Of a DNA stretch of 64,000 nucleotides, positions 2,733-60,815 are shown piece after piece (position 1 is the first letter of the stretch; each line of letters begins with the position of its first letter). Made by a program: the position numbers and the translations under genes. Where the stretch lies: the NCBI GenBank assembly GCA_013391385.1, contig JACBFI010000014.1, forward strand, positions 1-64,000, in the 5' to 3' direction. Source of the DNA: Sediminibacterium sp. Gen4 (GTDB lineage Bacteria > Bacteroidota > Bacteroidia > Chitinophagales > Chitinophagaceae). The notes below the pieces were generated by a model. The model saw only the letters and a list, made by a program, of their open reading frames with translations. It made no database searches and was not told the DNA's origin.

Positions 2733-2895
2733 AAAAGTCAAAAGTGAAAGGTGAAAAAGCGATATTAACTACTAATTGATGATACCTAACTTACGCTACT
2801 GTTTACCAAGGACCATGGACTATAAGACTATGAACCATCAGCCATGAACTATGAGCTATTGGCCATCGACCATGGACTATAAACCATAATCCACT
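2733..2895. repeat. Heptad-period repeats filling the fRMsr-rhlE gap
   Basis: Two word families are present. At about 2728-2756 there are GTGAAAn-type units. From about 2811 to 2893 there are about eleven consecutive 7-bp units of the form nnCYATn (such as GACTATG, AACCATC, AGCCATG, AACTATG, GGCCATC), with a single 8-bp slip. No ORF is plausible. Together with the promoter and leader that follow, this accounts for the 339-bp stretch 2723-3061. Confidence 0.8.
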
Positions 2896-2904
2896 TATTT
2901 TCCT

Positions 2905-2912
2905 TATCTTTG
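2905..2912 (+). promoter_or_regulatory. -7 promoter element of the rhlE leader
   Basis: TATCTTTG matches TAnnTTTG. Transcription would begin near 2916, giving a leader of about 145 nt before the helicase start. Confidence 0.55.
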
Positions 2913-3009
2913 CACCATTCATATACTCTCTCTACACGACTCGATTTCCTTCCGTGACAAAGTTCATCAGTCTTTTACAGGTCGCTTTTAGCATCTACAG
3001 GTAGGAAGG

Positions 3010-3050
3010 TTATATAACAACTGAGCGAATTCAGTTGTGTTTTTATATAA
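3010..3050 (+). promoter_or_regulatory. Attenuator-like terminator hairpin in the DEAD-box helicase leader
   Basis: A perfect 8-bp stem (3017-3024 with 3031-3038, loop GCGAAT) is followed by G and a run of five T. An outer TTATATA/TATATAA pair (3010-3016 and 3044-3050) could extend it. The structure lies about 100 nt into the leader and 12 nt before the helicase start. This looks like an intrinsic terminator placed to control read-through. Upstream, a CCTTCC near 2948 can pair with GGAAGG near 3004 to close the leader domain. Structure and position are seen; regulation is inferred. Confidence 0.5.
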
Positions 3051-3061
3051 AATTTATTCCA

Positions 3062-4306: not shown

Positions 4307-4317
4307 TTTAGCTTATT

Positions 4318-4372
4318 GCTTATAGTTCATAGCATATTGTAGGAAAATTACTATTTGCTATGGACTATAAGC
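4318..4372. repeat. Inverted heptad repeat after rhlE
   Basis: Arms 4318-4334 and 4356-4372 are complementary at 16 of 17 positions (word type GCTTATAGTTCATAGCA) around an AT-rich 21-nt loop. It belongs to the nnCYATn family and sits directly after the helicase stop codon, where it could end transcription. Confidence 0.75.
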
Positions 4373-4385
4373 CACCTGCTATCCC

Positions 4386-4393: not shown

Positions 4394-4397
4394 TAAC

Positions 4398-6994: not shown

Positions 6995-7028
6995 AAGAGG
7001 CTGTATCCAACTTTTGATACAGCCTCTT
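6995..7028 (+). terminator. Terminator hairpin after tRNA-Leu
   Basis: A perfect 13-bp stem (AAGAGGCTGTATC with GATACAGCCTCTT, 8-nt loop) ends 10 nt downstream of the tRNA start of the spacer. Nearly the same stem follows the Bax-inhibitor gene at 16662-16695, so this is a repeated terminator type. Confidence 0.8.
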
Positions 7029-7060: not shown

Positions 7061-7092
7061 ACCATGGACTATGGACCATAAGCCATGAACTA
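7061..7092. repeat. Heptad repeat, nnCYATn family
   Basis: Successive 7-bp units ACCATGG, ACTATGG, ACCATAA and GCCATGA lie between the tRNA terminator and the 3' end of the convergent winged-helix gene. Confidence 0.7.
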
Positions 7093-7127
7093 ATCTTTTA
7101 CCCCCCTCCTTTTTCAATGGGTTCTTT

Positions 7128-8422: not shown

Positions 8423-9784
8423 ATGGCCACCGTTACCAGAGAAAACATTGGACTACTGACCGACAAATTGACCGTTACACTCAATAAAGAAGATTACTTC
8501 TCAGGTTTTGAGCAAAGTTTGAAGAAATATGCGAAGACCGCAAATATCCCAGGATTCAGAAAGGGAATGGTGCCTGCCGGATTGGTAAAGAAAATGTACG
8601 GACAAAGTGTTTTCACGGATGAAGTGTTGCGTACGGTTGAAAAAGAACTGAACACTTATCTCAGCAATGAGCAACTGGATATTTTTGCTCAGCCATTACC
8701 ATTGGATAATGATGCACGTGCATTGGATATGAACAATCCTGCGGATGTAAGCTTTGCGTTTGAGATCGGTTTGAAACCCAATTTTGAGATCGATACTAAG
8801 AAGATCAAAGTAACCCGTTATGTGATTGATGTAACAGATGAAATGATTGATCAGGAAGTGGAGCGTCTACAAATCCGTAATGGAAAAATGACCGAGCCAG
8901 AAGCGGTTGCAGGTGATGAAAATGTATTGAATGTAAAATTCATTGAGTGTGATGAGAATGGCAATGAAATAGAAGGTGGAATTAGCAAAGACAACTCATT
9001 ACTGGTTAAATATTTTGAAGCATCATTCCGTAAAAATTTCATCGGCAAAAAGAACAATGATACGGTTGTATTGCAGTTGGATAAAGCCTTTGAAGACAAA
9101 GAGAAAGAAGCCATTCTGGCTGACCTTGGTCTGACTCCTGCTGACGGCAACCGCTATTTCAAGTTATTGATTACTAAGGTTGGACTGGTAGAGAAAGCTG
9201 AGATGAATGCTGAATTCTTTGCAGCAGTTTATCCGAATAATGAAATCACAACTGCTGAAGATTTCCGTGCTGAAGTAAAGAAAGAAATTGAAAATTACTA
9301 CGCTCAACAAGCGCGCAATCAAATCCATGATCAAATCTATCATCACCTGGTAGACCATACCAACATGGATTTCCCTGAAAGCTTCTTGAAGCGCTGGTTA
9401 CAAACCGGTGGTGAAAAGCAAAAGACTGCCGAAGAAGCAGAACAGGAATACCCAACTTTCATCAACCAATTGAAATGGACATTGGTAAGCAGCAAGCTGG
9501 CTGCAGACAATAAAATTGAAGTTCATCCTGATGATATCCGTGAATTCGCTAAACAACAATTGTTCAGCTATATGGGCGGACAATTGGGCGCATTGGGTGA
9601 TAACCAACAATGGGTAGACGATTATGCCAACCGCATGATGCAGGATAGAAAGTACGTAGAAGAAAGCTACCACCGCATCAGCACAGAAAAACTGTTTGGT
9701 TTGTTGGAGTCTCAGGTAACTGCAAAAGAAGAAAGCATCAGCGCCGAAGCCTTTGCAGAAAAACTGCACCATCACCACCACTAG
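8423..9784 (+). CDS. tig: Trigger factor, ribosome-associated chaperone / prolyl isomerase
   Basis: The 453-residue protein has the three-domain trigger factor layout: an N-terminal ribosome-binding domain with the signature region (NIPGFRKGMVP, about 38-50, near the usual GFRxGKxP), a diverged FKBP-like middle domain (about 150-240), and a helical C-terminal chaperone domain. It binds nascent chains at the exit tunnel. It leads the conserved order tig-clpP-clpP-clpX but ends in a strong terminator, so the clp genes are probably transcribed separately. The C-terminus ends in a natural run of five histidines. The ATG is preceded by an A-rich leader and no Shine-Dalgarno. Confidence 0.95.
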   Translation: MATVTRENIGLLTDKLTVTLNKEDYFSGFEQSLKKYAKTANIPGFRKGMVPAGLVKKMYGQSVFTDEVLRTVEKELNTYLSNEQLDIFAQPLPLDNDARALDMNNPADVSFAFEIGLKPNFEIDTKKIKVTRYVIDVTDEMIDQEVERLQIRNGKMTEPEAVAGDENVLNVKFIECDENGNEIEGGISKDNSLLVKYFEASFRKNFIGKKNNDTVVLQLDKAFEDKEKEAILADLGLTPADGNRYFKLLITKVGLVEKAEMNAEFFAAVYPNNEITTAEDFRAEVKKEIENYYAQQARNQIHDQIYHHLVDHTNMDFPESFLKRWLQTGGEKQKTAEEAEQEYPTFINQLKWTLVSSKLAADNKIEVHPDDIREFAKQQLFSYMGGQLGALGDNQQWVDDYANRMMQDRKYVEESYHRISTEKLFGLLESQVTAKEESISAEAFAEKLHHHHH

Positions 9785-9792
9785 GATTTTTT

Positions 9793-9847
9793 GATGGCAG
9801 ATATCAGATGTAGGATTTCTGATGTCGGATGTATGATTGATGATATA
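9793..9847. repeat. Heptad array, GATnnnn family (forward arm)
   Basis: Eight uninterrupted 7-bp units each begin with GAT (GATGGCA, GATATCA, GATGTAG, GATTTCT, GATGTCG, GATGTAT, GATTGAT, GATATA). It lies just after the tig stop and is the inverted partner of the array after the terminator. Confidence 0.85.
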
Positions 9848-9856
9848 AAATTTGAG

Positions 9857-9882
9857 GCCGGATACATGTATCCGGCTTTTTT
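9857..9882 (+). terminator. Rho-independent terminator of tig
   Basis: A perfect 20-nt palindrome (9857-9876, half-site GCCGGATACA) is followed by six T (9877-9882). Confidence 0.9.
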
Positions 9883-9890
9883 ATGTGCAT

Positions 9891-9970
9891 TCCATCCATA
9901 TCTGACATCTACGATCTGAAATCTGACATGACAAATCCGACATCCTACATCCTACATCAGGCATTCCACG
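9891..9970. repeat. Heptad array, inverse of the GATnnnn family
   Basis: From 9901 to 9963 nine perfect 7-bp units follow (TCTGACA, TCTACGA, TCTGAAA, TCTGACA, TGACAAA, TCCGACA, TCCTACA, TCCTACA, TCAGGCA). They are reverse complements in type of the array at 9793-9847. The two arrays flank the tig terminator symmetrically and fill the 285-bp gap to clpP. Confidence 0.85.
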
Positions 9971-10069
9971 TGACTTGTTGTCTTAAACAGAGCTTTGCAC
10001 AGTATTTGAACAAGGTTTTGTCCGGTGAAATAGCAAATCACTTATCTTCAAAGCGAAAATTGAATCAAT

Positions 10070-10763: not shown

Positions 10764-10848
10764 CATATTGCTTATAGATCATAGCTTATGGTCTATGGCA
10801 ACAAATTCTTGCTATACGCCATGAACCATTTACTATAAGCTATTTCAA
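10764..10848. repeat. Inverted heptad repeat between the two clpP genes
   Basis: Units GCTTATA, GATCATA, GCTTATG, GTCTATG face GCTATAC, GCCATGA, ACCATTT, ACTATAA, GCTATTT across an AT-rich centre. The two halves are inverted copies in type and could form one long imperfect hairpin that limits read-through from clpP1 to clpP2. Confidence 0.75.
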
Positions 10849-12985: not shown

Positions 12986-13085
12986 AGTTAGCTAATGGCC
13001 ATGGCTCATGGCGTATAGGTCATAGCATATAGTTAATAGTAAAACCTTCTTACTATATGCAATCAGTCATTAGCTACAAGCTAAA
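12986..13085. repeat. Inverted heptad repeat, nnCATnn family
   Basis: Units GCTAATG, GCCATGG, CTCATGG, CGTATAG, GTCATAG, CATATAG, TTAATAG are followed across an AT-rich centre by ACTATAT, GCAATCA, GTCATTA, GCTACAA. They lie between the clpX terminator and the small gene at 13097. Confidence 0.7.
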
Positions 13086-13270: not shown

Positions 13271-13344
13271 GTGAATTGTCAATTGTGAATGGTGAATAAA
13301 GAAACTCACTACTCACTATTCACCATTGACAATTCACCATTCAC
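13271..13344. repeat. Inverted heptad repeat, GTGAATn family
   Basis: Arms 13271-13298 and 13317-13344 match as inverted copies at 25 of 28 positions (units GTGAATT, GTCAATT, GTGAATG, GTGAATA). The array lies between convergent genes and its right end contains the TGA stop codon of the YjbR-like gene. It could act as a bidirectional terminator. Confidence 0.85.
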
Positions 13345-13663: not shown

Positions 13664-13671
13664 CAAATATA
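13664..13671 (-). promoter_or_regulatory. -7 element of the YjbR-like gene
   Basis: On the minus strand TATATTTG matches TAnnTTTG and is separated from the ATG by only 2 nt. Confidence 0.5.
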
Positions 13672-13672
13672 G

Positions 13673-13795
13673 TGAGTAGTGAATAGTGAGTATTTTGATG
13701 TTGTGAATGGTCAATTGTGAATGGTCAATAGTCAATAAAAAACTCATTACTGACCACTCACTATTCACAATTGACCATTCACCATTCACAACATC
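13673..13795. repeat. Inverted heptad repeat, GTGAATn family, between yjbR-like and korA
   Basis: Units GTGAGTA, GTGAATA, GTGAGTA, then GTGAATG, GTCAATT, GTGAATG, GTCAATA face CTGACCA, CTCACTA, TTCACAA, TTGACCA, TTCACCA, TTCACAA. The right end overlaps the korA stop codon. Same family as at 13271-13344 and inside the E1 gene at 17769-17843. Confidence 0.85.
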
Positions 13796-15659: not shown

Positions 15660-15717
15660 CAGTTTACAAGCAAGTGTGCGTGTCGTTTTTTAGTGTCGGG
15701 GGTGCTGGGTACCGGGT

Positions 15718-15795
15718 TGGCCTATGGCCTATAGTTCATAGCATATAGCGATTTCGTGCTTACTATAAGCCATGAACCATAAGCCATAGGCTAAA
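15718..15795. repeat. Inverted heptad repeat in a divergent gap
   Basis: Units GCCTATG, GCCTATA, GTTCATA, GCATATA face ACTATAA, GCCATGA, ACCATAA, GCCATAG. It is notable for lying between two divergent promoters (korA and the Bax-inhibitor gene), where a terminator is not expected. Confidence 0.75.
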
Positions 15796-15841
15796 AGAGT
15801 ACCTAACCCTTGAAGCTTTTCCAAACAACCGGTAGTTTCCG

Positions 15842-16700: not shown

Positions 16701-16750
16701 CTATGGACCATGGCCTATCGACCATAAGCCATCAACTATAAACGATTACA
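16701..16750. repeat. Heptad repeat, nnCYATn family
   Basis: Units ACTATGG, ACCATGG, CCTATCG, ACCATAA, GCCATCA, ACTATAA lie between the terminator and the E1 promoter. Confidence 0.75.
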
Positions 16751-16752
16751 AG

Positions 16753-16781: not shown

Positions 16782-18803
16782 ATGGAATTCAATCGCAAAA
16801 CATTGTCTGATCCCGAACTGGTTTTTATCTATCGCAATATTCTGTTACCCCGAATGATTGAAGAGAAAATGCTGGTATTGCTGCGACAGGGCAAAATCAG
16901 TAAATGGTTTAGCGGTATTGGACAAGAAGCCATTGCGGTTGGAAGTACACTTGCGTTACAAAAAGATGAATGGATCATGCCATTGCATCGTAACCTGGGT
17001 GTATTCACCAGCAGACAAATGGGTTTAGAAAAATTATTCAAACAATGGCAAGGCAATAAAGACGGTTACAGTAATGGTCGTGAACGTAGTTTTCATTTTG
17101 GCAGTAAGCCGCATTATATCTGTGGAATGATATCGCACCTCGGTCCACAATTGGCATTGGCTGACGGGGTGGCATTGGCATATAAACTCAGACAAGAAAA
17201 TAAAGTATCACTTGCTTATTCAGGAGATGGTGGTACCAGCGAAGGTGATTTTCATGAAGCACTCAATGTGGCAGCTGTATGGGAGCTACCGGTGATTTTT
17301 GTGATTGAAAACAATGGTTATGGATTGAGTACACCTGTCAATGAACAGTACCGCTGTGAAAGCTTGGTTGACAAAGCCAAAGGATATGGTATGGACGGTG
17401 TGCGTATAGACGGCAATAATATTTTAGAAGTATATGATACCATCAGAGGTGTGCGTGATTATTGCATACAAAATCAAAAACCTTATTTGATTGAGTGTAT
17501 GACTTTCCGCATGCGCGGACATGAAGAAGCCAGTGGAACCAAATATGTACCGCAAGAGCTCTTTGAGGAATGGGGTAAAAAAGATCCGGTAAAAAATTAT
17601 GAGCAATACCTGATTGCAGAAGGGATTCTGAATGAAATGCAGGTAGCTGATATCAGACATGAATTCAAAGAATATATAGAGTCAGAACTCAAAGCCGCCT
17701 TCGAAGCAGAAGCCATTTTTCCGAATAGTGAAGAAGAATTGAGAGATGTGTATGCTAAGAAGTCCATGGTGAATGGTGAATTGTCAATGGTGAATATTGA
17801 GGATAGCCAATCCTTCATTGACCATTCACCATTCACCATTCACGAAAAACGTTTCGTCGATGCCATACAGGAAGCTTTGCGGATGAGTATGGAAAAACAT
17901 GAGAACCTGATTTTGATGGGACAGGATATTGCTGAGTATGGCGGTGCATTCAAAATAACAGAAGGTTTTGTACAACAGTTTGGTAAAGAGCGTGTGCGCA
18001 ATACACCATTGTGTGAAAGCGCTATTGTGGGGACTGCTCTGGGATTGAGTTTGGAAGGGTTTAAGAGTATGATGGAAATGCAGTTTGCAGATTTTGTGAC
18101 GGTAGGATTTAATCAGATCGTCAACAACCTCGCCAAAATACATTATCGCTGGGGACAAAATGCTGATGTGGTGATTCGTATGCCCACCGGTGGTGGTGTA
18201 GGTGCCGGACCTTTTCATTCACAGAGTAATGAAGCTTGGTTTACCCATGTACCGGGATTAAAAGTAGTGTATCCTTCTAATCCACAAGATGCAAAAGGAT
18301 TGTTGATCGCAGCCATTAATGATCCAAATCCGGTATTATATTTTGAGCACAAAGCATTGTACAGAAGCGTGAGTGGACCTGTACCGGAGATCTATTATGA
18401 AACACCCATTGGTAAAGCGGCAATTACAAAAGAAGGAACAGATATTACTATCATCACTTACGGATCGGGTGTGCATTGGGCTCTGGAATACCAGGAGCAA
18501 CATTCAGACATTTCATTACACATACTTGATCTGAGAACATTATTGCCATTGGATGTTGAAAGCATTCGTGAAGCGGTTGCAAAGACCGGAAAAGTATTGA
18601 TACTCCATGAAGATACACTTACCGGAGGTATTGGTGGAGAAGTAAGTGCATGGATCAGTGAGCATTGTTTTGAGTCATTAGATGCGCCGGTGTTGCGTTG
18701 CGCTTCATTAGATACACCGGTTCCATTCAATATGGATCTCGAAAAGAATTTCATGGCGAAAAGCAGACTGCAAGAGTTTGTAGAAAAACTCATGAAATAT
18801 TAA
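16782..18803 (+). CDS. 2-oxoacid dehydrogenase E1 component, alpha and beta fused
   Basis: This 673-residue cytosolic TPP enzyme catalyses the first step of a pyruvate or branched-chain 2-oxoacid dehydrogenase complex. The E1 alpha half (about 1-325) carries the TPP motif GDGG (148-151) to ENNGYG. The E1 beta half (about 355-673) begins KRFVDAIQEALRMSMEKH and contains MGQDIAEYGGAFK and HEDTLTGGIGGEV. The alpha/beta fusion is common in Bacteroidota. The junction (about residues 327-356) is encoded by an in-frame GTGAATn-family inverted repeat that is intergenic elsewhere. No E2/E3 genes are adjacent. The substrate cannot be settled from sequence. Confidence 0.9.
   Translation: MEFNRKTLSDPELVFIYRNILLPRMIEEKMLVLLRQGKISKWFSGIGQEAIAVGSTLALQKDEWIMPLHRNLGVFTSRQMGLEKLFKQWQGNKDGYSNGRERSFHFGSKPHYICGMISHLGPQLALADGVALAYKLRQENKVSLAYSGDGGTSEGDFHEALNVAAVWELPVIFVIENNGYGLSTPVNEQYRCESLVDKAKGYGMDGVRIDGNNILEVYDTIRGVRDYCIQNQKPYLIECMTFRMRGHEEASGTKYVPQELFEEWGKKDPVKNYEQYLIAEGILNEMQVADIRHEFKEYIESELKAAFEAEAIFPNSEEELRDVYAKKSMVNGELSMVNIEDSQSFIDHSPFTIHEKRFVDAIQEALRMSMEKHENLILMGQDIAEYGGAFKITEGFVQQFGKERVRNTPLCESAIVGTALGLSLEGFKSMMEMQFADFVTVGFNQIVNNLAKIHYRWGQNADVVIRMPTGGGVGAGPFHSQSNEAWFTHVPGLKVVYPSNPQDAKGLLIAAINDPNPVLYFEHKALYRSVSGPVPEIYYETPIGKAAITKEGTDITIITYGSGVHWALEYQEQHSDISLHILDLRTLLPLDVESIREAVAKTGKVLILHEDTLTGGIGGEVSAWISEHCFESLDAPVLRCASLDTPVPFNMDLEKNFMAKSRLQEFVEKLMKY
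17769..17843. repeat. GTGAATn inverted heptad repeat inside the E1 fusion gene
   Basis: Arms 17769-17795 and 17817-17843 match as inverted copies at 24 of 27 positions. Units such as GTGAATG and GTGAATT on the left face CATTCAC units on the right. It is read in frame, giving residues such as MVNGELSMVN and DHSPFTIH, between the E1 alpha and beta domains. The same family occurs at 13271-13344 and 13673-13795. Confidence 0.9.
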
Positions 18804-21488: not shown

Positions 21489-23030
21489 ATGAAAAAAAAT
21501 TATTTTCTTCTAGTATATTTCTTCATACCCATTCTCTCTTTCGCCCAAACCACCCAATCCTACAAAGCCCCATTCTTCAAAGACAATAACCGTCTTGAAA
21601 AAATAAAACCCTTCTTCCCGATCATCGAAAAAATATATCGGGAACATGCAGAGAAAAATCATTTTCCCGGATACAGTTTTGGGGTTGTAATGGATGGTGC
21701 TTTGGTATTCTCAGGAAACGGTGGATATACGGATGTGGTGTCTAAAAATCAGGTTAACAACCAAACTATGTTTCGCATTGCATCCATGTCTAAAAGTTTC
21801 ACTGCCATGGCTATTTTGAAACTAAGAGATGAGGGTAAGCTTAGATTGGATGATGCTGTTGAAAATTATATTCCTGAATTACGCAACCAACAATTAACCA
21901 AAGACGCTCCCACCATTACCATCAGAGATCTTATGACTCATTCCGCCGGTTTTCCGCAAGATGATCCCTGGGCTGATCGTCAATTGGCAGATACGGAAGA
22001 AGAATTGTTAGATGTGATCAAAAAAGGATTGCATTTTTCCAATGTTCCCGGCTTGCGTTATGAATACAGCAACCTTGGCTTTACCATGTTGGGTTATATC
22101 ATTCATAAAGTATCGGGTAAACCTTACAGCACCTATATTAAAGAAAATATCTGGCAACCCTTGGGTATGTCTCAGGCTGAATGGGAGTTCAATAAGGCAC
22201 CTGCTTCCCAATTGGCCAAAGGTCATCGCTGGATCAACAACCAATGGGTCGACGAACCTTTATTACACGATGGCATCTATGGTTCTATGGGTGGTATGAT
22301 CACTTCGATGGAGTCATTCAGCAAATACATCGCTTTCCATTTGAATGCATGGCCTCCTTCCAATACAGATGATGTAGGTCCGGTGAAACGTAGCACCGTC
22401 AGAGAAATGCATCAACCCTGGCGCTATAGTGGACTGAATGCACAATATCGCTACCCTAACGGAAGAACTTGTGCTACAGCATCTGCCTACACGTACGGTC
22501 TTCGGTGGACCAATGATTGCGAGGGTAGAACTGCCGTTGGACACAGCGGTGGCTTACCCGGTTTCGGCAGTAACTGGCTGATATTGCCCGAGTATGGTAT
22601 TGGCGTAGCTTTCTTCGCCAATGTGACCTATGCGCCTACTGCAGATCCGAATATTCAAGTATTGGATACTTTGGTAAGAGCTGCACAACTGGAGCCACGT
22701 GTCTTACCTCCTTCGGATGTCCTTTTAAAAGCGCAAAAAGAATTACTGTTTCTATTACCTGATTGGAAAAATGCTGCCAACTCTTCACTCTTTGCAGAAA
22801 ATTTCTTTCTTGATAAGCCCATTCAAGACTTGATCAAAGAATGTCGAGATATTTTTAATGCAGCCGGTAATATTATTCATGTAGATGATATCGTACCCCT
22901 GAACCAACTACGCGGACAAGTAACCCTACGTTGCGAGAATGGAGATATTCAAATTTTCTTTACACTAACCCCTACCAATCCGGCTCAGATCCAAGATTTT
23001 AGGATTAGAAGGGTGCAGAGGGGGAGGTGA
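21489..23030 (+). CDS. Secreted serine hydrolase (beta-lactamase/PBP-like), second family member
   Basis: The 513-residue protein has a signal peptide (MKKNYFLLVYFFIPILSFAQ). The SxxK motif is SMSK (99-102), YEYSN carries the Tyr-x-Asn motif, and HSGGLPG is the third motif. About 110 further residues follow the catalytic domain, as in other CubicO-type hydrolases. It may be an esterase or D-amino-acid-type peptidase; lactam hydrolysis cannot be excluded. The ATG at 21489 is chosen because the signal peptide begins there; the frame extends upstream to 21408 without sense. The 246 bp before it hold nothing I can identify. Confidence 0.85.
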   Translation: MKKNYFLLVYFFIPILSFAQTTQSYKAPFFKDNNRLEKIKPFFPIIEKIYREHAEKNHFPGYSFGVVMDGALVFSGNGGYTDVVSKNQVNNQTMFRIASMSKSFTAMAILKLRDEGKLRLDDAVENYIPELRNQQLTKDAPTITIRDLMTHSAGFPQDDPWADRQLADTEEELLDVIKKGLHFSNVPGLRYEYSNLGFTMLGYIIHKVSGKPYSTYIKENIWQPLGMSQAEWEFNKAPASQLAKGHRWINNQWVDEPLLHDGIYGSMGGMITSMESFSKYIAFHLNAWPPSNTDDVGPVKRSTVREMHQPWRYSGLNAQYRYPNGRTCATASAYTYGLRWTNDCEGRTAVGHSGGLPGFGSNWLILPEYGIGVAFFANVTYAPTADPNIQVLDTLVRAAQLEPRVLPPSDVLLKAQKELLFLLPDWKNAANSSLFAENFFLDKPIQDLIKECRDIFNAAGNIIHVDDIVPLNQLRGQVTLRCENGDIQIFFTLTPTNPAQIQDFRIRRVQRGR

Positions 23031-23033
23031 TGG

Positions 23034-23165
23034 GTTATCGGGGAATCGGGAAATCAGGTGATCGGGTGTTGGGTGCTAGTTTTTTAAATATTCGAAGTGT
23101 TTTCTATTTGCCATGATCCATACGCCATAAGCCATAAGCCATGGACCATGGACTATCGACTATAC
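23034..23165. repeat. 8-bp and 7-bp period repeats between hydrolase and porin
   Basis: At 23034-23082 units like GAATCGGG, AAATCAGG, TGATCGGG recur with a period of 8. At about 23109-23163 units GCCATGA, TCCATAC, GCCATAA, GCCATAA, GCCATGG, ACCATGG, ACTATCG, ACTATAC recur with a period of 7. Confidence 0.75.
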
Positions 23166-23182
23166 TCTATTAACTCACCCAT

Positions 23183-28198: not shown

Positions 28199-28270
28199 AG
28201 CAGCTATTTTTAGCTATGAGCTTCGAGCCAAGAGCTATGAGCAATCTAACAATACGCTCATAGAAAGATA
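28199..28270. repeat. Heptad repeat, GCTnnnA family
   Basis: Units GCTATGA, GCTTCGA, GCCAAGA, GCTATGA recur with a 7-bp period, then a partial inverse (GCTCATA). It lies in the divergent gap between the D-aminoacylase gene and prfA. Confidence 0.65.
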
Positions 28271-28306
28271 GCTGGCCTTAGAAGCCAAAACTCAGCCCGA
28301 AAGCTG

Positions 28307-33034: not shown

Positions 33035-33061
33035 AGGGTTAATTTTTCTGGGAAGAAAAAA

Positions 33062-33117
33062 TGAAAGGTGAAAGGTGAAAAGTGAAACGATTTTGTTTCA
33101 CCTTTCACTTTTCACGC
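33062..33117. repeat. Inverted heptad repeat, GTGAAAn family, inside the DUF47-pit operon
   Basis: Units GTGAAAG, GTGAAAA, GTGAAAC face TCACCTT, TCACTTT, TCACG. The hairpin lies between two genes expected to be co-transcribed. It may attenuate pit relative to its partner or stabilise the upstream message. Confidence 0.75.
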
Positions 33118-34014: not shown

Positions 34015-34037
34015 GCGTGGGAGGGCTGATAGATTCC

Positions 34038-34089
34038 TACCATGGACTATCGACTATGGACCATGGACCATAGTCGATAGTCCATGGTA
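34038..34089. repeat. 52-bp near-perfect palindrome, nnCYATn heptad family
   Basis: Two 26-bp halves are inverted copies with one mismatched pair. Each half is built of 7-bp units such as CCATGGA, CTATCGA, CTATGGA. It lies 22 bp after the stop codon of the PhoR-like kinase, where it could terminate transcription. Confidence 0.9.
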
Positions 34090-34110
34090 AGAAAATATTT
34101 TCACCCTCAC

Positions 34111-35160
34111 TCACTCCCTCTTCGCATCCAACGTAAACCCAATCGTAGTTCCTACATCCAGTTTACTACGAACATGCATGGTTTGTCCGTGGGCTTCAAT
34201 GATATGTTTACAGATGGCTAGTCCGAGTCCGGTACCCCCTTTATCTCTGCTCCTACCTCGATCTGTGCGGTAAAATCGTTCGAATATCCTAGGCAAATGT
34301 TCTTCAGCAATCCCAATACCATCATCACTGAATTCAATTAATACATGTTCATCATCGGTTCGATAAATACTCGCAACAATGGTTCCATCCTGCTTACCAT
34401 ATTTCACTGCATTTTCCAACAGATTATTCATGACCTGTCTGATCTTCTCTTGATCTGCGAATACTGTGATGGGATATTCGCAACCCTTTTTTATAGAACA
34501 CTTGATATTTTTAGCAGTTGTTTTAATAGACAATGTTTCATACACTTCTTTGATCAATTCCTGGATCACGAAATTCTCTTTATACAAAGGCTGTTCCCCG
34601 CTTTCCAGTCTGGATATCTCATCCAGATCTTTTACAAGGTTCACCATGCGATCCACATTCCTGGCTGTATTTTCCAGGAAACGTTTACGTACATCAGTCG
34701 ATTCCATTGCGCCACTCAATAGCGTATCTACATATCCTTGAATAGCGAAAATGGGTGTTTTAAATTCATGCGCCAAGTTCTGTAGAAATTCTTTGCGGTA
34801 TGCTTCATTGTTCTTGAGTAATTCAATCTCTGCACTTCTTTGTTCCGCCCATTTTTCTACATCTTCTCTCACCTCATCAATTCCTTTTTGGGGTAAGATA
34901 TACTTGTAATAAGTTTCTTCTCTTTTGCTTGCTTTTGTTTGATAGATGAATTTATAGATCAACTTGATCTTGCGATAGATAAAAGACTCTAATACCGTTC
35001 TGATCAGTAAATAACTACCTAAAAAAGTCAACACCAAAGAACCCACTGCTATTTTCCAATCCGGCTCAATGATCCAAATCCCTAATGAAATAGGAATCGA
35101 CAAAATCAAAGCAGTAAATGCCGATAACTGTTGCGGAGAAAGATTCTTGGTTTTGAACAT
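34111..35160 (-). CDS. Sensor histidine kinase, PhoR-like
   Basis: The 349-residue membrane kinase has two N-terminal TM helices (about 12-30 and 36-55) with almost no periplasmic loop, as in phosphate-type PhoR. A linker leads to the H-box NLAHEFKTPI (His131). The ATPase domain has N-box NNLLENAVKYG, G1 DDGIGI and G2 GTGLGLAICKHI. It is downstream of a PhoB-like regulator on the same strand. The adjoining DUF47/Pit genes support a phosphate role, but family assignment to PhoR is by resemblance. The start at 35160 (MFKTKNLSPQQ) matches relatives better than 35166. Confidence 0.85.
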   Translation of the reverse strand: MFKTKNLSPQQLSAFTALILSIPISLGIWIIEPDWKIAVGSLVLTFLGSYLLIRTVLESFIYRKIKLIYKFIYQTKASKREETYYKYILPQKGIDEVREDVEKWAEQRSAEIELLKNNEAYRKEFLQNLAHEFKTPIFAIQGYVDTLLSGAMESTDVRKRFLENTARNVDRMVNLVKDLDEISRLESGEQPLYKENFVIQELIKEVYETLSIKTTAKNIKCSIKKGCEYPITVFADQEKIRQVMNNLLENAVKYGKQDGTIVASIYRTDDEHVLIEFSDDGIGIAEEHLPRIFERFYRTDRGRSRDKGGTGLGLAICKHIIEAHGQTMHVRSKLDVGTTIGFTLDAKRE

Positions 35161-35174
35161 TACCACTAAGGTAG

Positions 35175-35308
35175 GGAAAGAGAGAAATCAGAAATAGAGA
35201 ATAAGAAATAAGGAACAGAGGAATGAAGAATAATGAATTTTGAAATAGCTTTATACAATCACTTGTGGCCTACGGCTTGCAGCATGCAGCCAACTGCTCA
35301 CAGCTCAA
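35175..35308. repeat. Two heptad repeats between the phoB-like and phoR-like genes
   Basis: At about 35183-35245 units GAAATCA, GAAATAG, AGAATAA, GAAATAA, GGAACAG recur. At about 35265-35307 units ending in GC recur (TTGTGGC, CTACGGC, TTGCAGC, ATGCAGC, CAACTGC, TCACAGC). Both show a period of 7. The second overlaps the regulator's stop region. Confidence 0.65.
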
Positions 35309-42000: not shown

Positions 42001-42422
42001 CTTATGCTTTCCAGTCTTTGGCTGTGAATATGCGTGGCTACAGACAGAATATTGCCAATGGTAATAATGCATTTGTGATCAACAGTGAGTTTAGATTTCC
42101 ACTGTTCTCTACACTCATTAACCGACCCATCAATAATGCTTTCCTGAGAAACTTCCAATTGGTTCAATTCCTGGATTTAGGAACTGCGTGGAATGGTAAA
42201 TACAATGGTATTAAACGTCCGGGTGATGTTATCAGTGACCCTAACTCACCTGTGATCGTTCGTATTGATGCAGGTGGACTCGGCCCATTTGCCGGTGGTT
42301 ATGGATTTGGTGCTCGTAGTACCTTGTTGGGCTATTTCATGAAGTTTGATGCAGGCTGGCCGATGAAGGGCATATTTAAGGGAGCGCCGGTTTACTATTT
42401 TGCAATAGGATTTGACTTTTAA
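39051..42422 (+). CDS. TolB-like propeller and outer-membrane barrel fusion (Bacteroidota 'Tol' family)
   Basis: The 1123-residue exported protein has a signal peptide (ending LFPVLSMAQ). Residues about 30-240 resemble a peptidase MA-like domain, including LPKWLVDGYVSYAAE, but where HExxH would stand the sequence is IREGIAKVLTDNLL, so it should be inactive. Residues about 300-620 contain PD40/WD40-like repeats (DANSLIFSAVKNGHSDIF, GIIFSSNRPS). From about 720 the pattern is an outer-membrane beta barrel ending YYFAIGFDF with terminal Phe. I infer an outer-membrane protein with a periplasmic propeller; its role is unknown. Confidence 0.75.
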   Translation: MQLNRMMKGWVLAIFLFPVLSMAQVNSVEFGKNRVQHKKLIWKFYQSPNFNTYTSQGGVELGKFAAQVAEEELRSLENFIEYSLQRRANIVVYNNYNDYKSSNIGLGIDWQNSGGLTKLVNNKIVVYFDGNHANLKRQIREGIAKVLTDNLLFGDDIGEFASNQALLDLPKWLVDGYVSYAAEPWSTTKDDELKSAILSGTYRSFYQFAFEKPILAGHSFWQYIGEKYRKENITYLLYLARIYKNLNQACMRVCKKKFKEVLEDFMQFQQERYSRDIRQRRNAPRGQLNVSEEVTKKDFIRFQANPNPRSTTYAVVEFNKGIYCVKLMENFYDGKILLKSGVRTNQGDINPNYPILAWDGKGTRLLVAYWEDGKIKMFVYDLIARIKRYKQEIEGVDQILDASFMLDANSLIFSAVKNGHSDIFTYKIEQNKLEQITDDVYDDLNPTFVSFPNRSGIIFSSNRPSPVAPNADTVLPSNYRFNVFMVDILNTSKQKQITQLTNLKYGNASYPMQYNTNHFTFVADENGIGNRWAGFFSTKRDGLDTLYYIGEELLRNPSPKEFDSTLRAWQKDEPDSVSYFQVYKDSTYTFPITNYQSSLLETRIAGDNGQVSEVRREGDFKFLYKLRVDEQALNKRNVNSRPTEYMKRIMDEKKAVDGKAIIYNNGVATNDTTNRASKDFFQNEFANEKPDSSRRYDTEVITQKKSVLERSRLYDYSLKFSSDYILSGFTNNVLVNRYQPYAGGSGPIQLNNGNDFNFTFRVGVSDLFEDQKFVGGFRFGTNLSDKDVFFSYQNLRKRFDWGMTYYRSNVTNFFNTPFNSMLITNLYQGNITYPFNEVKSLRATVALRTDRGILRSFDNASGSPDPGALAFQDTISRYIVSRIEYVHDNTINPTQNIWNGLRYKVYFDVNMPTFKTALNNGKGTFNFGFDGRYYHKIYRNFIWAGRAAADFSWGGQKLIYYLGGVDGWIGPKFNNQNTPAPDQSYAFQSLAVNMRGYRQNIANGNNAFVINSEFRFPLFSTLINRPINNAFLRNFQLVQFLDLGTAWNGKYNGIKRPGDVISDPNSPVIVRIDAGGLGPFAGGYGFGARSTLLGYFMKFDAGWPMKGIFKGAPVYYFAIGFDF

Positions 42423-42423
42423 A

Positions 42424-42512
42424 GTTTGATTTCTTGATCTTTGATTTCTTGATTGAAGAAGAAGTTTATGTACAAATCAAAAAATCAAAGATCAAGAAAT
42501 CAAAGATCAAAC
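42424..42512. repeat. Inverted heptad-type repeat between convergent genes
   Basis: Words TTGATTTC, TTGATCT face GATCAAG, AAATCAAAG around a short centre. It starts next to the barrel gene's TAA and its right end forms the TGA stop of nth. It is likely a bidirectional terminator. Confidence 0.8.
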
Positions 42513-43675: not shown

Positions 43676-43707
43676 CTTGCAGCTTGTAGCTTGCCGCCTG
43701 AAGCTTA
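43676..43707. repeat. Heptad repeat, GCTTGnn family
   Basis: Units GCTTGTA, GCTTGCC, GCCTGAA follow the ftsB/divIC stop codon. The same words in inverted form lie on the other side of that gene at 44025-44101. Confidence 0.65.
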
Positions 43708-44016: not shown

Positions 44017-44024
44017 GGAGAAAA

Positions 44025-44101
44025 GCTGCAAGCTGTACGCTACAAGCCACAAGTAGAAATATTTTCCTTGCTTGAAGCTTGTAGCGTGCAGCTTGCGGCT
44101 A
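44025..44101. repeat. Inverted heptad repeat, GCTTGnn family, between eno and ftsB/divIC
   Basis: Units GCTGCAA, GCTGTAC, GCTACAA, GCCACAA face GAAGCTT, GTAGCGT, GCAGCTT across an AT-rich centre. It lies directly after the eno stop codon and would separate eno from the divisome gene. Confidence 0.75.
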
Positions 44102-50084: not shown

Positions 50085-51458
50085 ATGGGATGTGGATCAT
50101 GTGGAACGGGTAAACCGAACGGATGTAAAAGCAATGGCGGCTGCAGCACGGGTGGCTGTAATCGTTTGAATGTACACGATTGGCTGATGAACCTTCCTTT
50201 CAGCGACCCTGAAAGTTCCTGTAAAGTAGTAGAAGTAAGTTTCAAACAAGGCAGTCGCAAAGAATTCTTTCGCAATACAACACTACAATTTTTTGAGAAA
50301 GGTGATTATGTAACCGTAGAAGGTGTGAGTGGATATGATGTGGGCGAAGTGAGTTTGACAGGAGAACTGGTTCGTATTCAAATGAAGAAAAAAGGGGTGG
50401 ATGAGTTCAACCCTGAAATGAAAAAAATTCTCCGCAGAAGTACCGAAAGAGATATTGAAAGTTTTCAGATCAGTAAATCTAGAGAGAAAGAGATGCTGGC
50501 AAGAAGCAGGGCGATGGCACGTACCCTGAATCTGGAAATGAAACTGAGTGAAGTAGAAGTACAGGCCGATGGCAAAAAAGCTACTTTCTTTTATACCGCC
50601 GATGACCGTGTTGATTTTCGTGAACTCATCAAGCAGTATGCGAATGATTTCAAGGTAAAAGTAGAAATGCGTCAGATTGGTATCCGTCAGGAAGCTGCGA
50701 AAGTGGGTGGTATTGGAAGTTGCGGACGTGAACTGTGTTGCAGTACCTGGTTACATGATTTTAAAAGTGTAAATACTACTGCTGCTCGTTATCAGAATTT
50801 ATCGATCAATCAGACCAAACTCAGCGGACAGTGTGGCCGTTTGAAATGTTGTTTGAATTATGAGTTGGATACTTATTTAGATGCGTTGCAGCATTTCCCG
50901 GATTATGCCGATCAATTGGATACTGCTATGGGTCCTGCATATCTCATCAAGAAAGATATTTTCAAAAATTTGATGTGGTATGTATTACCCAATAATACCA
51001 AACACTATCCACTCACCATTCAGCGTGTGAAGGAAATCAAACGCCTGAATCAGCAAGGACAAAAAGTAGAAGAACTGCAACCGGTAGAAGTCACCAGCAG
51101 TAAGCCTAAAGAAGTAGAACCTGCTTTTGTAGATGTAGTTGGACAAATTAGTTTACGCAGTCTGGAGCGCAATGATAAACGTAGAAAGGATCAGCAGCGT
51201 GGTGATAGAAGAAACGGAGGGCAGCAGCAGGGGACAAGGGGACAAGATTCAAGACCACAAGGAAATCAAGGAAGAGGACAAGGACCAAGACCGCAGGGAA
51301 ATCAGCAAGGGAATAGGCCACAAGGTCCAAGACCTCAAGGAAATCAGCAGGGAAATAGGCCTCAAGGTCCAAGACCACAAGGGAATCAAGGAAGAGGACA
51401 AGGACCAAGACCGCAGGGAAATCAAGGTGGTGAACAGCAGCCTAAGCCGGATGCTTAA
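50085..51458 (+). CDS. ricT: PSP1-domain protein RicT with N-terminal Cys cluster and QGN-rich tail
   Basis: The 457-residue protein has an N-terminal Cys/Gly cluster (MGCGSCGTGKPNGCKSNGG), a PSP1 core (about 40-330) with GSCGRELCCSTWL and GQCGRLKCCLNYE, and a low-complexity tail from about residue 380 built of QGNRPQGPRPQGN-type repeats. In Bacillus, RicT works in a Fe-S complex that promotes RNA processing; a similar role here is inferred. The tail is encoded by near-identical DNA repeats that resemble the intergenic repeat after clpX. The N-terminal Cys cluster could be a second metal site. Confidence 0.8.
   Translation: MGCGSCGTGKPNGCKSNGGCSTGGCNRLNVHDWLMNLPFSDPESSCKVVEVSFKQGSRKEFFRNTTLQFFEKGDYVTVEGVSGYDVGEVSLTGELVRIQMKKKGVDEFNPEMKKILRRSTERDIESFQISKSREKEMLARSRAMARTLNLEMKLSEVEVQADGKKATFFYTADDRVDFRELIKQYANDFKVKVEMRQIGIRQEAAKVGGIGSCGRELCCSTWLHDFKSVNTTAARYQNLSINQTKLSGQCGRLKCCLNYELDTYLDALQHFPDYADQLDTAMGPAYLIKKDIFKNLMWYVLPNNTKHYPLTIQRVKEIKRLNQQGQKVEELQPVEVTSSKPKEVEPAFVDVVGQISLRSLERNDKRRKDQQRGDRRNGGQQQGTRGQDSRPQGNQGRGQGPRPQGNQQGNRPQGPRPQGNQQGNRPQGPRPQGNQGRGQGPRPQGNQGGEQQPKPDA
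51230..51432 (+). repeat. Coding tandem repeats in the ricT tail
   Basis: A 53-nt segment at 51252-51304 recurs at 51372-51424 with one mismatch, and intermediate copies are spaced about 42 nt. CAAG words recur every 7-9 nt. The string GACAAGATTCAAGA is shared exactly with the intergenic array after clpX (12868-12915). Confidence 0.8.
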
Positions 51459-51560
51459 TTAATAGGAAAAAAAATGTATTTAAAAGGTATCATTCATGTG
51501 ATACCTTTTTTTGTGCCGTTAGTACTACTTCGTATAAATACCTGATTTTTTAGACTACGC

Positions 51561-51589
51561 TTGGTACGGATGGGTTGAGTGTAGATTTG
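51561..51589 (+). promoter_or_regulatory. Promoter of the parDE operon
   Basis: TTG at 51561-51563 and TAGATTTG at 51582-51589 are 18 nt apart, close to the Bacteroidota -33/-7 layout. Confidence 0.5.
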
Positions 51590-51655
51590 ATGATCCGAAA
51601 GAATACAATTATTCATCCCAAACTCAACAAATGAAATTAATGAGCAGCAATTCGA

Positions 51656-51680
51656 AAAGTTACCAAAATTTGGTAACTTT
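51656..51680 (+). promoter_or_regulatory. Perfect 25-bp dyad, probable ParD operator
   Basis: Two 12-bp arms (AAAGTTACCAAA and its exact inverse) flank one central A. It lies 16 bp before the ParD ATG at 51697 and downstream of the -7 element, a usual position for antitoxin autoregulation. A second -7-like element (TAACTTTA, 51674-51681) overlaps its right arm. Confidence 0.6.
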
Positions 51681-58007: not shown

Positions 58008-58062
58008 ATATGAAAATACAGTATTTAACTGTATGTCGGCTTAGCAACGAAAACATTACAGA

Positions 58063-59415
58063 TCAATAAATAGCATGCAGGTTCATCAAGAATGCCTCTA
58101 CAGCCCTTCTTACTGTTACAGCGGATGTTTGGTGATTGTTTACTAAAACAGAAAAAATGAGCTTTCGATTTTTCTTCGTGATCAGATAGCCGCTTAGTGC
58201 TACTTGTCCACTGAGGGTTCCTGTTTTCGCAAAAATTTTATACTGAAGAGGCTTATAAAAATTATTCAAAGTGCCGGTTCCGCCGGTAGGCAGGATGGTT
58301 GTTATTCTTTCCCATGAAAACTCTTCATTCATTTTTTGTAAAAGACTTATAAAATGCATCGGTGTAAATAAGTTATATCGGCTAAGCCCGCTACCATCCA
58401 CCCAATTGGGTTTTTGAACTAACTCTGAGAAGTTCATCTTCAATAATGTATCGATCACTTTTCGGTCATTTATCACACCCAGTATCTCGTCACTTACCAT
58501 CAGGAGCATTTGTTCTGCAAAAAAGTTGTCACTTTGGTACATCATAGGTCGAAGCACAGAATCTGTGGGTTGTGAATGCAGAATGCGTATCGCTTCCTTT
58601 GATGGAGCAGGTATGGATTTGAATTGTGATGCATAACTATTCGTCCACTTTAACCCTTTGATTTCCGATTGTAGCACTTTAGCTGAAAAAGTATCACTGG
58701 TTACAAAAGGAATTTGCTGTTGTCTAAAAGGAGATGTACTGGTAGTGTATATCAATGTATTGACATGCTGTGCTCTTCGAAAGCTGTACATATTTGAGCG
58801 ACGATTCAAATCTTCTGTATAATCTGCTTTACTTCCATCCGCTGCTTTTATAGTAGAGGGATGCCATTGTATGCTACTATCCTTGTAACGAATCCATATC
58901 AAATTCCCATAAACAGGAAAAGCACTGCGTTCAGCCATATAGTTTTGCTGATAGTCATTCCATGACCAGCCACTACCCCATTGTGTGGTTTGAAAAGGAA
59001 GATCAATTCTTGCATAAACACGGCTGGTATCTGAGCGAAGAAATTCCATTACAGGTTGTCTTACAAAATCAGGATGCAACAGTGTAGGATCGCCTGTAGG
59101 TCTTACCCATGTTACGCCGGAAGATGGATCAGTATAATAACGTAACCCTTTGATACTATCTCCCAAATATTTCATGGCAGCATAACAAGTAAAAAGCTTG
59201 GTATTACTCGCCGGAAGGAAGAGTTTATCTGCCTGGTAATTATAGAGGTATTGATTTTTTTCAGGATCGAAAATACTGATACCGATATGGGCTGATTTAA
59301 GGTCAGCTTCTTTGAAGATAGCGTGATCAGCTTGTTTTTGAATGGTTCGCTGTACTGAACATGCTGTAAGTGAGATGATGGAAAGTAGTAAAAAGCGCAC
59401 CCTGAATGGCATCAT
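58063..59415 (-). CDS. dacB: D-alanyl-D-alanine carboxypeptidase/endopeptidase, PBP4 family (S13)
   Basis: The 450-residue lipoprotein has a lipobox LTAC and the PBP4 active-site motifs: SxxK in PASNTKLF, DGSGLSRYN with the SxN-type region, and KTG in FAKTGTLSGQVALSG. The family trims peptidoglycan stem peptides or cross-links in the periplasm. It resembles DacB of other Bacteroidota in length. No other wall genes are adjacent. Confidence 0.88.
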   Translation of the reverse strand: MMPFRVRFLLLSIISLTACSVQRTIQKQADHAIFKEADLKSAHIGISIFDPEKNQYLYNYQADKLFLPASNTKLFTCYAAMKYLGDSIKGLRYYTDPSSGVTWVRPTGDPTLLHPDFVRQPVMEFLRSDTSRVYARIDLPFQTTQWGSGWSWNDYQQNYMAERSAFPVYGNLIWIRYKDSSIQWHPSTIKAADGSKADYTEDLNRRSNMYSFRRAQHVNTLIYTTSTSPFRQQQIPFVTSDTFSAKVLQSEIKGLKWTNSYASQFKSIPAPSKEAIRILHSQPTDSVLRPMMYQSDNFFAEQMLLMVSDEILGVINDRKVIDTLLKMNFSELVQKPNWVDGSGLSRYNLFTPMHFISLLQKMNEEFSWERITTILPTGGTGTLNNFYKPLQYKIFAKTGTLSGQVALSGYLITKKNRKLIFSVLVNNHQTSAVTVRRAVEAFLMNLHAIY

Positions 59416-59464
59416 ACAAAAGTGATTTTATGATGACTAATGTACTGACTCTTCGTCAAAGCCC

Positions 59465-60598
59465 CTAGATTCTTTCAGCAGCGCGCATCCATCTTTCAGG
59501 AATATCATTATTGGAGGCTGTGAGATAATCTCTATAACTGCAGGCAATATATTTACCATCATGTAATTGCATCCACCAGCGACCTGTTTTTTTACTTTGT
59601 AGAAATACGGTTTCTACTTCTGCAAAAGCCAGGGTAAATTCATTGAAAGCATTTCTGTCTTCCATGGATGCTTCTTGCTTTCCTCTTTGAATACCATCCA
59701 TAGTATACCAAATCAGATGGGAGATTTGTTTGGCTGTCATTTGATGAACATCCTGAGCTGGCATATATCCATAAATACCAATGGTTCTGCAAGTATGACT
59801 CATCCCAGCATATTGCATCAATGTACAGGCTTCTTCTCCATTAAAACCATTGGGTGTAACATGATTAGCAGGTGCGTGTGCATGTTGAATGGCCGCAATA
59901 TCGAAACTAAAAAGATCACTATTTCTGATAGCAGGTTCCATTTCGGAAATATCTTCTTTCACCTTTCCTACACGATAACAATCAAAGCGAAGCTTATCAA
60001 TGGTTTCCAACATTTGCGGATGCATGAAATAGCTCTGGAAACCAATATGGTTATAGTGTCTTAAATAATTGGGCATACCGGTGAATAAGTCTACCAGAAA
60101 ATTATCTGCCGGAGTCATACTCTCCATATCCATATCAATTCTTGCATCTACACAAGCTGCATCAATGATTTTTCCTTCTCCCGTTTGTGCCTGGTATTGA
60201 GCAGTAGTAATATCATGCGAGCCACCTAAAATCAATACTTTCTTTCCAAGCGCCAACAATTCCTGCAACACCATACGAAGTGCTGCATAACTATCTTGCA
60301 ATGTTACACCACATTTCACATTACCTAAGTCTGCAACGTTTACTTCTGTATGCCAATGATAGAGGCGATAAAATTCACTTCGGATGGTATCCGGACTATC
60401 TGTATGTGTGAACTGAATACCCGCTCCACGCATTTCTCCACATCCTACGATTACCAGATCTGCATGATCAATATCGGGAAAACTTTCATCAAATACAGCG
60501 ATATGCTTACCCAACTGCGTGTCTTTATAACCCTCATCATTGGAAAGCTGTGCAATATTCACCGGCTCTAAAAAATCTATAATCGTATCTAGGGACAT
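59465..60598 (-). CDS. Arginase/formimidoylglutamase-fold protein with degraded metal motifs
   Basis: The 377-residue cytosolic protein follows the ureohydrolase fold: GGSHDIT (about 125-131) in place of GGDHS, DARIDMD where DAHxD is expected, and SFDIAAIQHAHAPA where SxDxDxxDP is expected. At least three metal ligands (His to Arg, two Asp lost) are absent. A Mn-dependent ureohydrolase activity is therefore doubtful. Similar degenerate members occur in Bacteroidota annotated as formimidoylglutamase. The role is unknown. Confidence 0.7.
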   Translation of the reverse strand: MSLDTIIDFLEPVNIAQLSNDEGYKDTQLGKHIAVFDESFPDIDHADLVIVGCGEMRGAGIQFTHTDSPDTIRSEFYRLYHWHTEVNVADLGNVKCGVTLQDSYAALRMVLQELLALGKKVLILGGSHDITTAQYQAQTGEGKIIDAACVDARIDMDMESMTPADNFLVDLFTGMPNYLRHYNHIGFQSYFMHPQMLETIDKLRFDCYRVGKVKEDISEMEPAIRNSDLFSFDIAAIQHAHAPANHVTPNGFNGEEACTLMQYAGMSHTCRTIGIYGYMPAQDVHQMTAKQISHLIWYTMDGIQRGKQEASMEDRNAFNEFTLAFAEVETVFLQSKKTGRWWMQLHDGKYIACSYRDYLTASNNDIPERWMRAAERI

Positions 60599-60704
60599 GC
60601 GTAATTTTTTCAGAGAGATAACGCTCAGTCACGCCAAAAATTGTGTAGAAATAACAAAAGATAAGCTTAAGCGTGTGTTTAGAATATACTTCTGTTATCA
60701 GCTA

Positions 60705-60815
60705 TAAGCCACGAGCTGTGAGCTACGGGCTCATACACATTTTATTAGCAATAATTTGAACTAGAAAACTCCAGCATAGCTCGAGGCTCGCAGCTCATGG
60801 CTCATAGCTCAAAAT
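60705..60815. repeat. Inverted heptad repeat, GCTnnnA family
   Basis: Units GCTATAA, GCCACGA, GCTGTGA, GCTACGG face GCTCGAG, GCTCGCA, GCTCATG, GCTCATA. The family matches that at 28199. It fills most of the 252-bp gap between the arginase-like gene and the regulator's 3' end. Confidence 0.75.

Follow-up and report, generated by a model that had tools for sequence, protein, structure and literature searches.

Heptamer arrays in and around the genes of the window

The DNA described here, called the window throughout, is the first 64 kb of contig 6 (positions 1-64000) in the 3.52-Mb genome (98% complete) of Sediminibacterium sp. Gen4, and the subject is a class of degenerate tandem arrays with a 7-nt unit that lie in its intergenic gaps and, in one case, inside an enzyme gene. 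Orthologous gaps were aligned with those of close relatives (L001, L002 and G002, the last being the genome behind L002), in which matching stretches were about 89-94% identical.

The arrays that read on the forward strand begin with an AAGTSAA heptamer array at 2727-2757, a few bases past a stop codon, and include CCATGGA-type arrays at 2811-2894, at 7061-7095 (behind a tRNA-Leu gene and a GC hairpin, with none seen in the relative), at 16701-16751 (following a canonical terminator) and at 23109-23170 (with a GGTGCTA/GGAATCG-type array upstream, at 23030-23080). The same strand carries a GAAATAA-type array (35172-35230), a short GGCTTGCAGC-type array (35265-35300) and a GCTTGNN-type array (43676-43706). 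Sites given without a strand include the TAGCTTAT/TAGTTCA-type inverted arrays at 4309-4381, which enclose a 7-nt loop and are near-identical in the relative, the GGTACTA and CTATAGTTCATAG-type inverted arrays at 15708-15803, the TAGCTAATGG-type arrays at 12986-13076, in which the species differ by 7 and 14 nt, and the GAGCTAT-type arrays at 28201-28274, which are shorter in the relative.

A sequence-only reading of this DNA had put a strict 7-bp period at about twenty intergenic loci and had suggested autocorrelation against shuffled sequence as a check. The period was borne out. Over the 49 gaps of the window (6,919 bp) the self-match at lag 7 was 0.3435, compared with 0.2710 in 60 dinucleotide shuffles (z 13.4), and lags 14, 21 and 28 were raised as well (z 11.4, 9.0 and 4.2); the same autocorrelation gave no comparable lag-7 peak in the coding DNA of the window. 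Eighteen of the 20 listed positions had a lag-7 segment at p<0.01 (400 shuffles per position), the weaker two being 4318 (p 0.035) and 42424 (p 0.037), where another lag outscored lag 7 (8.8 vs 7.4). In a 464-kb sample, made up of the window and 20 stretches of 20 kb from the same genome, 80 period-7 arrays were found, 69 of them mostly intergenic, whereas each of the other periods from 4 to 12 gave 0 to 10; 64 period-7 arrays lay in gaps, where 10 shuffles gave 0.0 on average. A search against Rfam at gathering scores matched only the tRNA. The intergenic DNA contains, then, the tandem 7-nt units by which heptanucleotide short tandemly repeated repetitive (STRR) sequences are recognised.

By reading, the units fall into about ten word families: GTSAATN, GTGAAAG, AAGTSAA, GATGTNN, CCATGGA/GGTCCAT, TAGCTTATGG, AAGCTGC, GAAATAA, TTGATTT and GTTGACA. 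The genome holds 222 occurrences of GTGAATGGTGAATGGTGAA at up to three mismatches (reversed control, 0) and 187 of CCATGGACCATGGACCATGG (control, 4), the remaining families having been counted in the 464 kb only. The earlier proposal that each gap uses its own word is thus right in that there are several families and wrong in that words are not confined to one gap: a limited set of words is common to many loci and to other genera. Its wider suggestion, that one process generates or selects the arrays and that they are not all copied from a single element, is supported by the period shared by several families, by loops that by eye look unlike one another, and by single sites at which the word differs between close species. 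Within the phylum, GTGAATGGTGAATGGTGAA at up to two mismatches was present in 73 of 296 sampled genomes, mostly as a few copies, with a few genomes rich in it. A member of another genus of the same family (G398) had 24 arrays in 80 kb, with the words GTGAGAC, GATGACG, GGATGTT and GTGAATG; its loci L141-L144 have heptamer arms, some of more than 100 nt, and two of them enclose GTGCGAGACC/GGTCTCGCAC hairpins. Among ten genomes chosen by pattern matches, hairpins numbered 12 in G398, one in G346 and none in the other eight, of which 20-40 kb each were sampled. The lag-7 excess differed strongly among related lineages, as judged from short loci. Outside Gen4 the 7-nt period also stands out less sharply: at the loci of other species the periodicity cut applied to hairpin arms was passed by 28 hairpins at lag 7 and also by 16 at lag 8. 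The Gen4 genome itself has a further hairpin family, ATGGGACGCGGATTTTTATGAT, without 7-periodicity (L081 6949-7188, L089 6969-7099 and L099 16389-16490).

Hairpin geometry and polarity

Most arrays had been described as inverted pairs, and this was also found here. Among gaps of up to 420 bp, a hairpin scoring at least 30 was present in 88 of 261 but in none of 139 shuffled gaps, and in 42 of the 59 array gaps an array overlapped the arm of a hairpin scoring at least 28; conversely, 58 of 96 hairpins at this score had 7-periodic arms. Script-made gene calls delimited 286 gaps of 30 bp or more, and 65 of these held arrays: 43 of 179 gaps between tandem genes, 13 of 46 convergent gaps and 9 of 61 divergent gaps. 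In tandem gaps they lay nearer to the stop codon, starting a median of 33 nt past it (one quarter within 3 nt), than to the start codon, from which the median distance was 85 nt.

The two arms follow a fixed order. For six families, scored over the 464 kb, L001 and 100 kb of G002, the word preceded its reverse complement in 52 cases and followed it in 2. In the genome's own hairpins the 5' arm had more G than C in 47 of 52; the same held for 22 of 28 hairpins at loci of other species, some of them not clearly heptameric, and for 13 of 13 in ten further genomes, 12 of these coming from one genome. Since a hairpin reads identically on both strands, neutral inverted duplication should yield either order. 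The 5' arms also tend to contain stop codons in all three frames (31 of 52, against 3 of 52 for the 3' arms; 10 of 28 against 2 of 28 at the loci of other species). All-frame stops were considered as the basis of the order and are tentatively taken instead as a by-product, because some words that lack a stop (for instance GGGAGTC and GGGTTAC, both from the enzyme linker described below) keep the same order.

Word replacement, loop inversion and an array within a gene

Comparison of orthologous gaps between close strains, which had also been proposed, showed that hairpins at one site can carry different words in the two genomes. The 184 kb of Gen4 sequence compared contained 106 gaps of up to 420 bp, 70 of which had an ortholog in the fetched stretches of G002 (contig 24 being partly without counterpart there). 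Sites are named by window position, or as C24 n (contig 24, position 50000+n) and C35 n (contig 35, position n). A hairpin scoring at least 26 was present in both genomes at 31 of the 70 gaps, in one only at 9 and in neither at 30, and at 12 of the 31 shared sites the printed arms, read by eye, belonged to different word families: 506, 9785 (in part), 13662 and 33765; C24 17338, 19630 and 24143; and C35 1312, 8746, 13157, 14261 and 19212. A few of the swapped pairs are related words, such as GTGAAAG and GTGAATT. Calling swaps by arm score alone, with a cut at 26 because 95% of unrelated sites score below it, also gave 12, with 43161 and C24 21396 taking the places of 9785 and C35 14261. Further swaps, outside the 12, were seen at 13250 and 10760. 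A model of independent gain and loss predicted about 6 swaps and 23 one-sided sites, compared with the 12 and 9 seen (twice the log-likelihood difference 18.2, or 14.8 with only 10 swaps counted).

Examples within the window are the CTCTGTG-type hairpin at 548-668, where G002 has a GTGAGTA heptamer hairpin; the GCTTATAG-type inverted arrays at 10767-10843, which have a replacement in L002; the GTSAATN inverted arrays at 13271-13344, opposite a CTCTGTG-type hairpin in the relative; the GTSAATG inverted arrays at 13670-13791, opposite AAAGTSA arms; and the CCATGGACTAT-type hairpin at 34014-34113, which in the relative has GTGAAAG outer arms. At 9779-9972, GATGTNN inverted arrays flank a canonical terminator and the relatives have TTTGATT-type arms about the same centre, so that the centre (site 9785) is conserved while the arms differ. 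As expected of template switching at quasipalindromes, the two arms change jointly between orthologues. Column identity between Gen4 and the relative was 76% in arrays and 92% in the other gap columns.

At some sites the loop, rather than the word, had changed, and by inversion. In the inverted arrays of TTTGATTTC/TTGATC type at 42418-42511, which have a mixed 7/8 period, the 20-nt loop (site 42423) reads GAAGAAGAAGTTTATGTACA in the window and TGTACATAAACTTTTTCTTC in G002, its reverse complement with one change (95% identity when inverted), between flanks in direct orientation. The AAGCTGC inverted arrays at 44024-44100 (site 44005) have a 17-nt loop that is likewise inverted in G002 with one change (94%), their flanks being unchanged, and at C24 12402 loops of 24 and 25 nt are partly inverted (inverted score 25). 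Orientation was tested in the 23 loop pairs that were 6 nt or longer, and these three each scored above 22, the highest value reached when loops from different sites were compared (1,012 comparisons). Two hairpins without 7-periodicity also looked inverted (43161, p 0.006; C35 77317, 8/8 nt, p 0.014), and at the GTGAAAG inverted arrays that start right at a stop codon (33062-33114; loop at 33035) an inversion is suggestive only (p 0.12). Two candidates were not counted: C24 21396, whose loop is only 3 nt, and C24 24143, which is word-swapped and found no support in the loop-score test. Assembly error is an unlikely source of the inversions, because the flipped hairpins measure no more than about 100 bp. 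Inversion of a spacer between unchanged flanks is a second feature expected of template switching at quasipalindromes.

The array at 17761-17844, which was outside the earlier list of loci, lies within a gene. Its inverted GTSAATG arms keep the reading frame and encode the linker that joins the E1_dh domain of a fused E1 dehydrogenase (gene 16782-18803) to the Transket_pyr domain. The best kept matches of the protein were named Chitinophagaceae, Sphingobacteriales and Sediminibacterium, and its amino acid identity was 96% to L001 and L002 and 88% to L003; a further relative, at 73% identity, comes from a record titled Streptomyces griseus (L071) that is probably a mislabelled metagenome bin. 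A period-7 array was present in the linker of 36 of 81 sequences (the window and 80 loci), compared with an average of 0.6% and a maximum of 8.6% in 32 control windows of the same protein. The linker words vary, including GTSAATG, GTGAGTG, CCATGGA, GGAGTCG, GGGTTGG, GGGTTAC, GTCGACC, GATGGAC and CAAGTTA among others, while 17 of the 36 have an I-D-N-S-like core, loosely defined, which in several stands between two arms. The 5' and 3' halves of a linker were more complementary to each other than to halves swapped between species (14.4 vs 10.8, p<=5e-5; 80 linkers, without L001). A linker array was present in 11 of 13 species with period-7 gaps and in 19 of 55 others, and the lag-7 excess of the linker correlated with that of the gaps (rho 0.41, p 5e-4, computed on the 68 of 81 for which gap DNA amounted to 900 bp or more, a statistic that ignores phylogeny). 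No RNA role is needed in this linker, since one would not look for a terminator within a gene of this sort; the coding linker records the process over a bacterial family.

Origin of the arrays and comparison with known systems

These observations suggest, with modest confidence on our part, that the arrays are the arms of imperfect DNA hairpins in unconstrained DNA, namely the gaps and one protein linker, and that they are reshaped by the copying of DNA. A polymerase that switched template between the arms during replication or repair would make the arms match again and invert the loop; slippage would add or remove units and so let the tandem grow; and a switch to a hairpin elsewhere in the genome would import another word, which would be why words are common to many loci and are replaced in place. 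Template switching between inverted repeats is reported to homogenise arms and to invert spacers, with long arms favoured (PMC8604942).

Several observations weigh against this proposal. Template switching does not predict the polarity of 52 to 2, and the 7-nt step and the G-rich-first order are left unexplained by it. The excess of swaps could reflect hot-spot gaps with independent gain, and for none of the new words was a donor found. When the left arm was compared with the other gaps, the best match there surpassed its own partner in 32 of 52 cases, equalled it in 10 and fell short of it in 10. In the linker, a half was the best match of its own partner in only 3 of 80 cases and among the top five in 14. 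Loops of 46, 77 and 125 nt were direct in all three cases, the first belonging to the GAGCTAT/GGCTCAT inverted arrays at 60666-60843, which have the same orientation in the relative; two short loops lean direct (p 0.02 each), and the orientation of the remaining loops cannot be told. Only 2 of 14 indel runs inside arrays were of 7 nt, and since array indels are mostly of other sizes, slippage in 7-nt steps is argued from single alignments and from the gene of L035, which is 21 nt longer than those of L024 and L034. Gap columns per aligned column were also fewer inside arrays than outside (0.105 vs 0.203, the latter including one indel of 810 columns). That indel is in the gap at 51459-51669, whose length is 211 bp in the window and 1,036 bp in G002; the preceding open reading frame (50085-51458) has a 42-bp tandem repeat of 4.5 copies at 51250-51424. 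A bolder and less probable reading is that the hairpins are selfish elements free of a transposase, whose word families would pass from one hairpin to the next across a genome by replicative template switching, overwrite one another at shared sites, keep their G-rich arm first and rewrite part of an enzyme.

An alternative rests on RNA: the hairpins would be terminators or protectors of mRNA 3' ends, in which pairing is selected and the word is free, so that a hairpin once lost is soon replaced. The position of tandem-gap arrays close behind stop codons, their greater frequency in tandem and convergent than in divergent gaps, and the outnumbering of one-sided sites by word swaps all agree with this, as does 33062, which on the minus strand resembles a stem with a T-rich tail. 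However, two signs of such selection were lacking. G-U mismatches in the sense strand of tandem-gap hairpins were not in excess of A-C mismatches (43 vs 40; 15 vs 14 in convergent and 7 vs 18 in divergent gaps), and in 36 tandem-gap hairpins the nine bases after the 3' arm had a T content of 0.324, against a background of 0.335, with at least five T in 22% of sense and 14% of antisense cases. Intrinsic terminators were therefore rejected for these hairpins on both counts, the U-tract and the G-U excess. Arrays also occur in divergent gaps and within the enzyme gene, and between 2500 and 22400 four canonical terminators stand beside or inside them (6995-7028, 9854, 12934 and 16662), although the scan as a whole yielded no more terminators than expected by chance (14 vs 14.8). 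These tests weigh against selection for pairing in RNA and leave other uses of a hairpin untouched; we consider an RNA origin unlikely. Much the same standing is given, if slightly lower, to non-autonomous mobile elements of the repetitive extragenic palindromic (REP) or miniature inverted-repeat transposable element (MITE) kind, each word family being moved by one transposase. Families of many copies, a fixed polarity and presence or absence between species would fit, but the printed loops are unlike one another, site 9785 and several E1 linkers keep a conserved centre while the arms change. A single Y1 transposase match was found in the genome (L106, G000:C59 around 89901-90239); it lies near other, REP-kind hairpins of CTCCGGACT type, in a gap without 7-nt arrays (a nearby gap has a weak one, 8.6), and Y1 genes were present in 39 of the 48 genomes examined, array-poor ones included; the REP-associated tyrosine transposase (RAYT) was accordingly rejected as the mover.

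The flipped loops between intact flanks could instead point to site-specific or homologous recombination between the arms, as in invertons. This is improbable: no common site is evident, hairpins with arms of different words, and the non-periodic hairpins 43161 and C35 77317, appear flipped, and the word swaps would be left unexplained. The polarity, for its part, fits a telomerase-like process in which a G-rich 7-nt repeat was templated onto both 3' ends of a break that were then joined, the G-rich arm preceding the C-rich one as in telomere fusions, and a reverse transcriptase that makes tandem repeats, DRT10, has been reported (PMC12632851). Attractive as this geometry is, we give it very little credence and rejected it for this genome, which has no match to RVT_1 or Ku; RVT_1 was also absent from 8 of the 10 other genomes classed as array-rich, and Ku was found in 1 of the 11 genomes so classed. 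Neither conserved centres between the arms nor flipped loops are predicted by it. Sediminibacterium sp. C3 (G013) is array-poor yet has ten reverse transcriptase matches. Plain 7-nt slippage microsatellites, with no process acting on the hairpin as a whole, would account for the period itself, and among the long simple repeats of many prokaryotes heptanucleotides are the most frequent, a pattern ascribed to polymerase slippage (Mrazek 2007, as cited in PMC4679880). That explanation is scarcely tenable where 42 of 59 array gaps are hairpins with a polarity of 52 to 2, loops flip, both arms are swapped jointly and 7-nt indels are few.

Heptanucleotide STRRs are a named class of cyanobacterial repeats, and a tandemly repeated heptamer was reportedly the subject of a 1995 paper (cited in PMC3542288). 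In 200 kb of Trichormus plasmid A we found seven period-7 arrays, of several words, against 0 to 2 arrays for each other period; one is an inverted pair with the G-rich arm first, as here, but the arrays are about five times sparser and mostly unpaired. The sequence-only reading, which had named the STRRs as the nearest parallel, went too far in holding that nothing of the kind was described for this phylum, since TAACTGA heptamers, a single word repeated directly, are known from Beggiatoaceae, cyanobacteria and five Bacteroidetes (PMC4679880). These resemble the present arrays in their 7-nt unit, mostly intergenic position and patchy distribution, and close relatives of two of the Bacteroidetes are described as having shorter gaps without obvious repeats. 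As set out in that report, they have one fixed word in direct repeats, with a single inverted case, and in the main genome stand mostly just 5' of start codons; by contrast, the arrays described here use many degenerate words, have inverted arms and lie closer to stop codons, and none of the 97 arrays listed had TAACTGA as its unit word. REP/RAYT palindromes are likewise dispersed, some of them within genes (PMC3733652), but no association with a transposase gene was found here. The closest likeness in mechanism is to template switching at quasipalindromes, which share matched arms, flipped spacers and occurrence in coding DNA (PMC8604942; PMC8794818). The published cases describe spacer inversions of 2 to 5 substitutions in coding repeats of yeast, whereas the present class is genome-wide, with loops of 17-25 nt, 7-nt periodic arms and word replacement.

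Heptamer repeats are known from scattered bacteria, and no mechanism for them has been agreed on (PMC4679880). Close relatives that capture stages of a hairpin (inverted loops, swapped words and a coding linker) make the origin of such repeats directly testable, and they caution that "compensatory" changes in bacterial hairpins can stem from the copying of DNA rather than from selection on RNA; the strict and unexplained polarity rule is something that any account must explain. Among the titles and abstracts listed by searches of an open-access library, none described inverted heptamer hairpins in Bacteroidota, though such a description may exist elsewhere. Repeats of heptamers were known before, as was the switching of templates at quasipalindromes; what appears to be new, as far as the open-access literature goes, is a genome-wide class in Bacteroidota that swaps its words and flips its loops.

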